The translations under genes were made by a program, and so were the position numbers. A stretch of 64,000 bases of DNA from Pectobacterium fontis (GTDB lineage: Bacteria > Pseudomonadota > Gammaproteobacteria > Enterobacterales > Enterobacteriaceae): contig NZ_JSXC01000024.1 in assembly GCF_000803215.1 (NCBI RefSeq), positions 62,001 to 126,000 on the forward strand. Reading direction: 5' to 3'. The notes beneath the pieces are model-generated. The model was not told the origin of the DNA and did no database searches. It saw only the letters and a list, made by a program, of their open reading frames with translations. Below are positions 53,961 through 56,881 of the stretch, one piece after another. Every line of letters starts with the position of its first letter. The stretch's first letter is position 1.

Positions 53961-54470
53961 ATGCAATTCAATAAAGTGCTGAAAGGCCTGATGTTGGCTC
54001 TGCCGGTACTGGCAGTGGCCGCTTGTAGCTCCAACAAGAATGCGGACAATGACCAATCTTCCATGGGCGCTGGCAGCAACGGCATGATGGACGGCGGTAA
54101 CATGTCTTCTTCTGAGCAAGCTCGTTTGCAGATGCAAGAATTACAGCGTAACAACATCGTTTATTTCGGTCTGGACAAGTACGATGTTAGCTCTGAATTC
54201 GCTCAGATGCTGGACGCACACGCTGCATTCCTGCGTAGCAACCCGTCTTACAAAGTGACTATCGAAGGTCATGCTGACGAACGTGGTACGCCAGAATACA
54301 ACATCGCTCTGGGTGAGCGTCGTGCCAATGCGGTACAAATGTACCTGCAAGGTAAAGGCGTTTCTTCCGATCAGATCTCTATCGTTTCTTACGGTAAAGA
54401 GAAACCAGCCGTTCTCGGTCATGACGAAGCGGCGTATGCCAAAAACCGTCGTGCCGTTCTGGTATATTAA
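53961..54470 (+). CDS. pal: Peptidoglycan-associated lipoprotein Pal
   Basis: Outer-membrane lipoprotein that binds peptidoglycan and TolB. 169 aa; lipobox LAVAAC with the acylated Cys near residue 22. A disordered linker with Gly and Met follows, then the OmpA-like domain with [16 protein letters not shown] near 68-83, the peptidoglycan-binding [20 protein letters not shown] near 101-120, and [27 protein letters not shown] ribosome site. It lies 40 bases after tolB. Confidence 0.97.
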
Positions 54471-54479
54471 GAGAATCGC

Positions 54480-55256
54480 ATGAGCAGTAACTTCAGACGT
54501 CACCTGTTGGGTCTGTCGTTACTGGTTGGCGTAGCGGTCCCCTGGGCCGCTACTGCCCAAGCGCCAATCAGTAATGTCGGCTCAGGCTCGGTCGAAGACC
54601 GTGTCACTCAATTGGAGCGTATCTCTAACGCTCACAGTCAGCTTTTAACTCAACTTCAACAACAGCTCTCTGATACCCAACGTGATATTGACAGTCTCCG
54701 AGGGCAGATCCAGGAAAGTCAGTATCAGTTGAATCAGGTTGTTGAACGGCAGAAGCAGATCTATCAGCAGATTGATGGATTAAGTTCGCAATCCTCTTCT
54801 ACACCGACGACAGACGGCGCACCTGCCTCTGCTGCGGGTACTGATACCGGTGCCGCCAATACGGCGGCACCGGCCAGTACGGGTGATGCGAATACGGATT
54901 ACAATGCCGCTGTTGCACTCGTGCTGGAGAAAAAACAGTACGATCAGGCTATCAGCGCATTTCAGGCATTCGTCAAGAAGTACCCGGATTCAACGTATCA
55001 GCCTAATGCCAACTATTGGCTTGGTCAGTTGAATTACAACAAGGGGAAAAAAGACGACGCGGCGTATTATTTCGCCAGTGTTGTCAAAAATTATCCCAAG
55101 TCACCTAAAAGTGCCGAGGCATTGCTGAAGGTTGGGGTGATCATGCAGGAAAAGGGTCAGGCTGATAAAGCTAAGGCCGTTTACCAGCAAGTTGTAAAAA
55201 TGTACCCCAATACAGAAAGTGCAAAGCAGGCACAGAAGCGTTTATCTGCCTCGTGA
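54480..55256 (+). CDS. cpoB: Cell division coordinator CpoB (YbgF)
   Basis: Periplasmic protein that links PBP1B activity to Tol-Pal-driven outer-membrane constriction. 258 aa: a signal peptide ending WAATAQA near 28, an N-terminal trimeric coiled coil (VEDRVTQLERISN then LRGQIQESQYQLNQVVERQK) to ~100, an Ala/Thr/Gly-rich linker to ~138, and a TPR domain with ANYWLGQLNYNKGKKDDAAY. It lies 10 bases after pal and is the last gene of the operon. Confidence 0.95.
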   Translation: MSSNFRRHLLGLSLLVGVAVPWAATAQAPISNVGSGSVEDRVTQLERISNAHSQLLTQLQQQLSDTQRDIDSLRGQIQESQYQLNQVVERQKQIYQQIDGLSSQSSSTPTTDGAPASAAGTDTGAANTAAPASTGDANTDYNAAVALVLEKKQYDQAISAFQAFVKKYPDSTYQPNANYWLGQLNYNKGKKDDAAYYFASVVKNYPKSPKSAEALLKVGVIMQEKGQADKAKAVYQQVVKMYPNTESAKQAQKRLSAS

Positions 55257-55269
55257 TTTTGTCTTAATT

Positions 55270-55306
55270 GGCACAAAAATCGCCCATCATGAGCGATTTT
55301 TGTGCC
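55270..55306 (+). terminator. terminator of the tol-pal operon
   Basis: Perfect 14-bp stem GGCACAAAAATCGC/GCGATTTTTGTGCC with a 9-base loop, 14 bases after the cpoB stop. The T run is inside the right arm. Confidence 0.75.
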
Positions 55307-55353
55307 TTGGCGTCTTAAGAGTAAGCAATTAAACAGTTTTTTAAGAAAATAGG

Positions 55354-55381
55354 TTGCGCTGAAAATTTAAATCAGTAATAT
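55354..55381 (+). promoter_or_regulatory. probable promoter of the tRNA-Lys genes
   Basis: TTGCGC (55354-55359) and TAATAT (55376-55381) are 16 bases apart, followed by the GC-rich discriminator GTGCCGCCG typical of stable-RNA promoters, about 50 bases before the first tRNA-Lys. Confidence 0.55.
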
Positions 55382-55431
55382 GTGCCGCCGTTGCCAAGGC
55401 AAACAGTAAGACGCTAAAGCAGCATGAAATT

Positions 55432-55507
55432 GGGTCGTTAGCTCAGTCGGTAGAGCAGTTGACTTTTAATCAATTGGTCGCAGGTTCGAATCCTGCACGA
55501 CCCACCA
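55432..55507 (+). tRNA. tRNA-Lys (anticodon UUU), first copy
   Basis: 76-nt tRNA with acceptor GGGTCGT/ACGACCC, anticodon loop CTTTTAA and encoded CCA. It sits downstream of cpoB, where E. coli has its Lys/Val tRNA cluster; no tRNA-Val gene is present here. Confidence 0.97.
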
Positions 55508-55511
55508 ATTT

Positions 55512-55658
55512 CAACTATGATAGTTGGTTTTGAATCGTGAAGGATGAGAACCATAAGGTTCGACAAAATCGGCAGTATCGATTTTGAACAACGCGAAAGC
55601 GTGGGCCCGAAGGGCGAGTCCGTAGGACGAGTAATCCTGCACGACCCACCAATTTCAA
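55512..55658 (+). repeat. tandem mini-hairpin array A plus tRNA-Lys 3'-end copy
   Basis: Between the two tRNA genes lies a chain of perfect small hairpins: CAACTA-TGA-TAGTTG (55512-55526), GAACC-ATAA-GGTTC (55548-55561), CAAAATCG/CGATTTTG (55564-55586), ACGC-GAAA-GCGT (55591-55602), GCCC-GAA-GGGC (55605-55615) and GTCC-GTA-GGAC (55618-55628). It ends in a 26-base exact copy (55633-55658) of the tRNA-Lys 3' end plus eight following bases (original 55489-55514). The design recalls the tRNA-3'-end repeats (rtT) after E. coli tyrT, but the hairpin chain is different. Confidence 0.85.
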
Positions 55659-55690
55659 GAGCAGCAAGTATCAAAGCAGTTCCGCATTGC

Positions 55691-55766
55691 GGGTCGTTAG
55701 CTCAGTCGGTAGAGCAGTTGACTTTTAATCAATTGGTCGCAGGTTCGAATCCTGCACGACCCACCA
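55691..55766 (+). tRNA. tRNA-Lys (anticodon UUU), second copy
   Basis: 76-nt tRNA apparently identical to the first copy, with UUU anticodon and encoded CCA. It begins 33 bases after repeat array A and is followed by array B. Confidence 0.97.
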
Positions 55767-56013
55767 CTCCCAGCAGTAGATTTCCTTTCTCAAATAATTT
55801 CATTTTAAATAGCATATAGCTCGTGTCGTGTGGGTGAGAACCTGCGCTCAGGTTCGAGCCGAGCGAAGCGAGACAGCAACGCGTTAGCGTTGACCCCGCA
55901 GGGGCGAGGCCGAAGGCCGAGTCATCCTGCACGACCCACCACTTCGGCAATAAATTTCCTTCCTCGAATAAATTCATTTTAAATCATATATCGCACGTGT
56001 CGTGTCGGTGAGA
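55749..56013 (+). repeat. direct repeat containing tRNA-Lys 3' end, with mini-hairpin array B between copies
   Basis: A ~90-base unit starting in the tRNA 3' end (55749-55839) recurs at 55924-56013. The first 20 bases are identical (ATCCTGCACGACCCACCACT); the rest is diverged but clear, ending GTGTCGTGTGGGTGAGA versus GTGTCGTGTCGGTGAGA. Between the copies lies GAACCTG-CGCT-CAGGTTC (55838-55855), AACGC-GTTA-GCGTT (55878-55891), CCCC-GCA-GGGG (55894-55904) and GGCC-GAA-GGCC (55908-55918). Three-base loops of the GNA type recur as in array A. Confidence 0.85.
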
Positions 56014-56164
56014 TAAAACCCATTATCGTTTTCTGCTTGTTAAGGCTTTGCGGTATATTAGGTGTTTTATCCCTCTACAGCCCGTCCGGGACGATTTTCT
56101 GATCCTATCGAGCAAGGGAATCATTGCCACAGGGCAGTGTGCGTAGCCCTGTTTAGGAAGATAT

Positions 56165-56881
56165 ATGATTGGTCCGTTGATTAATGGTGGCGCTATCTTG
56201 ATTGGTAGTGGTCTGGGCATTGCTTTACGTCGTTTTATCCCTCAGCGTTTGCAGGATGGCCTGCCCCCCGCGTTTGCGATGGTGTCGATTGCCATGGGTA
56301 TCACGCTGGTTGTTAAAGTCCAGCAGTTGCCTGCGGTGGCGTTGGCTATCGTGATTGGTGTGGCGCTAGGTGAGTTGCTACGTATGGAATCTGGCGTGCA
56401 GTGGGCTGGTACGATGATCCAGAAAGGGTTAAATCACGTTTTGCCTGCACAGGAGCACCGTTTACCGCAGGATGTTTACACTCAGAATTTTACTGCATTA
56501 ATTGTCCTGTTTTGTGCCAGCGGCACCGGTGTGGTTGGTGCGTTAACGGAAGGGCTAACTGGCGATTATCAACTGCTGATCATCAAATCGACCTTGGATA
56601 TCTTCACCGCGCTGATTTTTTCCATCACGCTCGGCCTTGCCGTGATGTCGATTGCGATACCGCAGATGATTGTCCAGATGCTATTGTTCTTCTCCGCCAA
56701 ATTGATTATGCCCTTTATGACCGAGGTTACGATGGGCGATTTTTCTGCATGTGGCGGGATTATCATGATTGCGGTAGGACTGCGGATCGCACAGATAAAA
56801 TCATTTGCGGTGGTTAACTTCCTTCCTGCTTTAGTCCTGGTTATTCCCATCTCGCTGTACTGGCATCGTTTTTTTGCTTAA
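56165..56881 (+). CDS. DUF554 family inner-membrane protein
   Basis: 238-aa polytopic membrane protein of the DUF554 (YqgA-like) family. It starts MIGPLINGGAILIGSGLGIA and has about seven hydrophobic segments. Conserved family stretches are FAMVSIAMGITLVVK near 38-52, VLFCASGTGVVGALTEGLTG near 116-135 and SACGGIIMIAVGLRI near 196-210. AGGAAGATAT supplies the ribosome site. No transported substrate is known for the family. It is not in E. coli at this position and stands as a single gene between the tRNA-Lys repeats and nadA. Confidence 0.85.
   Translation: MIGPLINGGAILIGSGLGIALRRFIPQRLQDGLPPAFAMVSIAMGITLVVKVQQLPAVALAIVIGVALGELLRMESGVQWAGTMIQKGLNHVLPAQEHRLPQDVYTQNFTALIVLFCASGTGVVGALTEGLTGDYQLLIIKSTLDIFTALIFSITLGLAVMSIAIPQMIVQMLLFFSAKLIMPFMTEVTMGDFSACGGIIMIAVGLRIAQIKSFAVVNFLPALVLVIPISLYWHRFFA

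Follow-up and report, generated by a model that had tools for sequence, protein, structure and literature searches.

The tRNA-Lys locus and its hairpin arrays

The window, i.e. the whole 64,000-nt stretch of Pectobacterium fontis DNA that was analysed, carries on its plus strand two tRNA-Lys(ttt) genes, at 55432-55507 (ARAGORN and the Rfam tRNA model) and at 55691-55766 (ARAGORN), which sequence comparison shows to be mutually identical. Behind each gene, on the same strand, lies a match to the Rfam family RF00391 (RtT RNA), at 55523-55651 and 55814-55941, respectively. The scores, 63.2 bits for the first array and 97.8 bits for the second, are both above the gathering threshold of 45, and both arrays align full-length to the model (positions 1-130). 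Each element sits just downstream of a tRNA gene in the same orientation, and its terminal 18-19 nt reproduce the end of the neighbouring tRNA without a mismatch: the first array ends in an exact 19-nt copy (55633-55651) and the second in an exact 18-nt copy (55924-55941) of the tRNA-Lys 3' end. Judged by these sequence features, both arrays are tRNA-linked repeats (TLRs; RtT in Rfam), a conserved element of a kind already named. Altogether, the genome from which the window comes contains five RF00391 matches. Upstream of the tRNA-Lys genes, 54371-54509 is a strong match (151.1 bits) to another Rfam family, the CpoB/ybgF RNA thermometer (RF02782).

In the first array, a trailer with a small predicted hairpin (55508-55534) leads from the tRNA gene to a 5' arm (55535-55545) which, according to the predicted fold and the pairing statistics of relatives, is antisense to the tRNA-Lys 3' end and forms the 5' side of a closing stem. 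Five predicted hairpins follow, namely, hairpin 1 (GAACC/GGTTC, 55548-55561; also among the consensus pairs), a long form of hairpin 2 (55564-55586), hairpin 3 (ACGC-GAAA-GCGT, 55591-55602), hairpin 4 with a GAA triloop (55605-55615; seen in the fold, the hairpin scan and the consensus), and hairpin 5 with a GTA triloop and CGAG on either side (55618-55628; fold, scan and two-sided changes). The copied tail then provides the 3' side of the closing stem and finishes with the CCA end. The minimum free energy (MFE) structure of this array is a closed six-way structure, consisting of the closing stem and the five hairpins, at -46.9 kcal/mol. The second array has the same parts: a 5' arm (TCGTGTGGGT, 55826-55835), hairpin 1 (55838-55855; fold and consensus), a short form of hairpin 2 that aligns as C-GA-GC-GAA-GC-GA-G (55860-55872) and probably contains tandem G-A pairs, hairpin 3 (CAACGC-GTTA-GCGTTG, 55877-55892; fold), hairpin 4 with a GCA triloop (55894-55904; scan), and hairpin 5 with a GAA triloop (55908-55918; fold and scan). 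Its single-sequence MFE structure differs from the family fold in that the closing stem is open, leaving the arm unpaired with the tail. Beyond the second tail, a truncated third unit (55947-56013), comprising trailer and arm, is 84% identical to 55773-55839 and stops before hairpin 1.

The locus had attracted attention in a sequence-only reading because of four perfect 4-bp hairpins with the triloops GAA, GTA, GCA and GAA, all of which were found where that reading had placed them. Of the 25 perfect 4-bp GNA-triloop hairpins on the plus strand of the whole window, four fall within 55512-55941; in 5000 mononucleotide shuffles of the latter segment, the mean was 0.11 and the maximum 2, so that four were never reached. 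The first spacer also folds better than its dinucleotide shuffles (z -3.70, 0/200 as good), as does the second (z -2.77, 2/200 as good). An intrinsic terminator was rejected, in line with the same reading, there being zero sites with a GC stem and a T run in 55200-56250; CRISPR, which it had likewise dismissed, was rejected on inspection, the sequence being devoid of a repeat-spacer pattern. Its statement that there is no constant repeat was not quite right, since recurring features do exist (fold, links and tRNA tail), and its suggestion of a replication or recombination mark received no backing from any test that was run.

The copied tail and the antisense arm

While the GNA hairpins are real, the more telling feature, a copied tRNA tail combined with an antisense arm, had been overlooked. 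The tail was surveyed in 150 RF00391 hits from the order among the matches listed, 132 of which have a same-strand tRNA gene upstream. These yielded 121 distinct sequences with an upstream tRNA; in 75 of them, the tail is identical to the tRNA 3' end at 18/18 positions. The tail of the element's own tRNA fits better than the best tail from another family in 105 of the 121, equally well in 2 and worse in 14. Of the 14 losing elements, 6 had been assigned to tRNA-Val (the one inspected covers a tRNA-Lys gene, and its tail fits Lys), and in one further element the tRNA tail is unreadable. The pattern extends beyond the order: a tRNA accompanies 64 of 73 hits from the class and the phylum (again among the matches listed), and its last 18 nt are copied exactly in 47 of the 64, most often from tRNA-Gln, -Ser or -Tyr; in a family outside the class (f225), 17 of the 19 hits examined have a tRNA and 11 of the 17 tails, as counted from the output, are exact. 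A pattern containing neither tail nor tRNA found 12 stretches, e.g. in Serratia, Erwinia, Kosakonia and Citrobacter; of its 13 matches, all but one are accompanied by a tRNA within the stretch, and each of these 12 carries an 18/18 copy of the tail. Three RtT matches from a single genome (G276), L085, L086 and L105, lack a tRNA-like tail, and the 312-950 nt fetched upstream of them contain no tRNA; a fourth match (L084) has a Lys-like tail at a contig end. These are possibly stray or decayed copies.

In both arrays of the window, the 5' arm is a near complement of the copied tRNA-Lys tail. The generality of this relationship was assessed with 94 of the 150 hits, the others having been set aside because they lacked a tRNA (18), had a tail match poorer than 16/18 (21), duplicated another sequence (11) or were assigned to Val (6); all arm tests were thus confined to elements with a tail match of 16/18 or more. 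Anchoring of the arm on a conserved GG left 85 of the 94 usable (9 could not be anchored), which gave 62 distinct arm-tail pairs. In these 62, 413 of 496 cells are paired between an arm and the tail of its own element; for positions 3-8, the paired fraction is 0.777 with the own tail versus 0.511 across families (2000 permutations with an sd of 0.018, none above 0.570; relatedness being uncorrected). An earlier anchoring, applicable to 75 of the 94, gave 7.57 of 10 positions paired as compared to a cross-family mean of 5.66; by this measure, the Pro-type arms, at 6.6 and 5.5 of 10, are weak. The longest contiguous runs of arm-tail pairs average 7.67 against 5.64 upon permutation in the order (95 elements, 60 permutations) and 8.71 against 6.05 in the class and phylum (55 elements, 60 permutations), the longest of all reaching 16 contiguous pairs with a tRNA-Gln tail. 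The mean duplex energy is -15.2 with the own tail and -10.8 with permuted tails (sd 0.26, 200 permutations), but the own tail beats the best other tail in only 46 of the 94, that is, a draw.

The tails that entered these comparisons derive from tRNA-Tyr, -Lys, -Pro, -Ser, -Arg, -Glu and -Gln, and include species variants within one amino acid. As far as the aligned sequences go, the arm is an antisense copy of its own tRNA 3' end that changes together with the tail, across seven amino-acid types and in the order, the class and the phylum. The consensus of the Rfam model has a Tyr-type tail, a picture that this rule refines. No earlier report of the rule was found in the open-access literature searched; older subscription papers may contain one. 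In the one 5S-linked element tested, the E. coli TLR RrB, a clear anti-tail arm is absent, the longest run being 6 bp. A distinct variant is represented by seven TLRs of tRNA-Arg(acg) (L058, L066, L074, L095 and others), in which hairpins 1 and 2 are, by eye, missing and a different 5' extension is present, with a short anti-tail arm retained.

Fold, array structure and predicted pairing with the tRNA

A consensus fold was derived with RNAalifold from 45 sequences, namely, 43 with less than 90% identity selected from 76 anchored ones and the two copies of the window. At least one two-sided change is seen in 12 of its 19 pairs, and one pair of hairpin 5 shows two-sided changes in 23 of the 45 sequences; the expectation of the sequence-only reading that the stem arms covary in relatives, whose failure was to count against it, is borne out. 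That reading also described CGAG joiners between the hairpins. They are present, but hardly as bare linkers: a C-G/U-A covariation in 13 sequences links the bases that flank the GA of CGAG, which fits tandem G-A pairs that close the hairpin. A tandem GA motif in RtT is noted in the CaCoFold paper (PMC7657543).

Changes that are tolerated differently in the two strands bear on the question of which strand is folded. In the closing stem, changes of the G-U type account for 36/174 and those of the A-C type for 26/267 (odds ratio 2.4 over 103 distinct pairs; p 0.002, relatedness uncorrected), which favours an RNA of the sense strand. The corresponding numbers for the stems of the body are 8 and 5. 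Among the predicted triloops on the sense strand of 129 bodies, GNA accounts for 170 of 264.

The arrays look, from the arrangement of their repeats, like tandem duplications, in which the unit begins within the T-loop of the tRNA and the trailer is often copied along. In 64 of 118 cases, the last tail is followed by a repeat of the tRNA trailer that exceeds the 99% background; by extension, a match is found for 44 of 91 last-of-array elements, with end points that vary from 63 nt before the arm to 149 nt after it. In many of the best 25 rows, the terminator of the tRNA is seen, by eye, in both places. Some TLRs (L119, L122, L130, L134 and others) lie, again by eye, between two identical terminator-like trailer hairpins, an arrangement that recalls the T1/T2 pair of rrnB. 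Such arrays could have a purely DNA-level origin, whereby tandem duplication, gene conversion and hairpin-templated repair would keep the tails and the stems alike and the RNA would have no role. The tandem arrangement with a partial last unit and the copied trailers with their scattered end points speak for this reading, as do the similarity of bodies at same-tRNA loci of one genome (0.73 to 0.99 alike) and the variation of annotated RtT copies from one to four among the 60 E. coli rows listed. It is less at ease with the tail being mostly retained where the trailer has diverged: of the 41 elements (kept at a tail match of at least 12/18) that lack the trailer repeat, 26 still have an 18/18 tail and 35 one of at least 16/18. 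The excess of G-U-type over A-C-type changes in the closing stem, the share of GNA among sense-strand triloops and the presence of matches in 57 of the 272 genera sampled from the class also speak against it, and we consider a DNA-level origin as the whole story unlikely, albeit deserving of some weight.

The direct repeat of the tRNA tail on both sides of the body might suggest a mobile element with insertion sites behind tRNA genes, and the three tail-less G276 hits with no tRNA in the upstream sequence fetched point the same way. The bodies, however, are closer to those behind the same tRNA family in other genera than to those of other families in 38 of 50 cases (9 opposite), or in 35 of 47 when three hits that run into a tRNA gene are set aside, whereas bodies from another tRNA family within the same genome are closest in only 7 of 49. 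The bodies thus keep to their tRNA family from genus to genus and give no indication of recent jumping; in addition, the ends of the repeat are imprecise. Insertion of a mobile element behind tRNA genes was rejected on these grounds, as the pattern of a recent spread was not seen, and it appears extremely improbable.

A further set of folds concerns the tRNA and the TLR together. The default energy model prefers a structure in which the tRNA acceptor strand is paired to the TLR tail in 57 of 57 cases, by 7.7 kcal/mol on average (1.3 and 7.0 kcal/mol for the two arrays of the window), and in the ensemble the partner of the arm is predominantly the tail of the tRNA itself (mean 0.77 versus 0.04 for the TLR tail, 60 cases). 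The notion of the arm as a cover that hides the spare tail is unsupported by this folding test, given the preference for the acceptor-TLR tail pairing. We do not take the computed fold as real, since the model includes neither the tRNA tertiary structure nor kinetics and the order of synthesis; yet the exchanged pairing leaves room for a strand-exchange role. The arm would pair with either the tRNA tail or the TLR tail, and the TLR tail could replace the tRNA tail, so as to tune or test pre-tRNA folding and maturation. In its most explicit form, four strands (the 5' half of the tRNA, its tail, the arm and the TLR tail) would swap partners in a checkpoint of pre-tRNA folding and maturation that is re-tuned by compensatory changes for each tRNA, a proposal to which we assign little credence. 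In addition to the energy preference, this switch would make sense of the antisense relation between the arm and the tRNA 3' end, which is seen in many families with runs of up to 16 contiguous pairs, and of a tail identity that extends over acceptor positions 70-76, where 26 mismatches were found in 693 cells (99 elements kept at a tail match of at least 14/18). Apart from what the energy model ignores, a terminator stands, by eye, between the tRNA and the element in many of the best 25 rows, and the sites at which the TLR tail deviates from the tRNA tail, 14 and hence few, show no clear preference: the arm is compatible with both tails in 7, with that of the TLR alone in 2, with that of the tRNA alone in 4 and with neither in 1. 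A strand-exchange switch seems quite unlikely.

A probable structured trailer RNA and its known relatives

The genome searches with RF00391 used strict filters and even draws, so that the following figures refer to samples; to judge from the E. coli-like relatives, the order and class sampled are presumably Enterobacterales and Gammaproteobacteria. Matches were found in 62 of 295 genomes and 27 of 99 genera of the order (43 genomes above the cut-off), in 66 of 369 genomes and 57 of 272 genera of the class (24 above), and in 47 of 398 genomes and 24 of 212 genera of the phylum (30 above); the one family outside the class mentioned above, f225, contributed 24 genomes to the phylum result. Within E. 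coli, a tyrV-TLR stretch is matched by 5375 of 5426 genomes, with at least 80% of the stretch covered in 4577; among the 60 rows listed, 8 show only tRNA-Tyr under the match. The element is annotated in RefSeq as 'RtT sRNA' in E. coli and as rttR in K-12. A small protein gene, tpr, is annotated inside K-12 rttR (L107, 1588-1677, minus strand).

TLRs were first described in 1978 and, according to a 2021 article, which still called their function unknown (PMC8144298), and which, citing Rudd 1999, counts 22 TLRs at ten loci in E. coli. RtT RNAs have been detected by Northern blots and RNA-seq in Actinobacillus pleuropneumoniae, where two of them are described as lying upstream of tRNA genes (PMC4986893), and some rtT-like sequences were linked to BIMEs in a 2010 paper (PMC2965389). 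The 5S-linked TLRs RrA, RrB and RrF are reported to bind CsrA and Hfq (PMC8144298), which gives some substance to the idea of a trans-acting small RNA, i.e. a sponge or a regulator, e.g. of CsrA or Hfq. By the same account, however, the remaining 19 E. coli TLRs, those of tRNA operons, score below 0.01 for CsrA binding, and the role in amino-acid starvation originally assigned to rtT was later retracted (PMC8144298). We therefore regard a trans-acting role as very doubtful.

The best explanation, which we favour with modest confidence, is that the TLR is a structured 3'-trailer RNA with a tRNA-like end that is cut by the enzymes of tRNA 3' maturation. The position of the element, its copied tail, the covariation of arm and of hairpins and the tandem structure are established by the sequences themselves; the steps that would connect them are as follows. 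Transcription would lengthen the tRNA precursor at its 3' end by the element, which would assume a multi-branched fold closed by the arm and the copied tail. Its tRNA-like 3' end would then be cut by the enzymes that mature the 3' end of the tRNA itself, RNase E followed by trimming exonucleases, with the putative cleavage releasing a discrete RNA. The identity of the tail would be maintained by selection for a tRNA-like end in combination with recombination within the array. In the sources cited here, a discrete processed TLR RNA is reported just for RrA, RrB and RrF of E. coli and for the RtTs of Actinobacillus (PMC8144298, PMC4986893); the RrB repeat has been proposed as an RNase E recognition site, and the 3' end of RrB maps 3 nt beyond its repeat (PMC8144298). 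Several observations weigh against the trailer-RNA explanation, namely, the weak Pro arms, the draw in duplex energy, the exchanged pairing in the default energy model, the MFE structure of the second window array, which lacks the closing stem, the lack of a clear arm in RrB, and the 8 of 60 E. coli rows with tRNA-Tyr only.

The closest known relative is the RtT RNA of the E. coli tyrT operon, rttR (RF00391), which the arrays of the window resemble in the full model match, in the location downstream of a tRNA, in the string of hairpins and in the closing stem made with a copied tRNA tail. The differences are that rttR sits behind tRNA-Tyr, whereas the window arrays sit behind tRNA-Lys and carry the Lys version of arm and tail, and that the first window copy has the long form of hairpin 2. 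With the E. coli TLRs in general, the arrays share an 18-19-nt 3' end identical to that of the upstream RNA gene and the occurrence of one to several TLRs per locus; the window, from a different genome, has two tRNA genes with one TLR apiece and a truncated third unit. In RrB, the short hairpins follow one another, by eye, as they do here, and the 3' end is likewise a copy, but in RrA, RrB and RrF the copied end is that of 5S rRNA and in the window that of tRNA-Lys.
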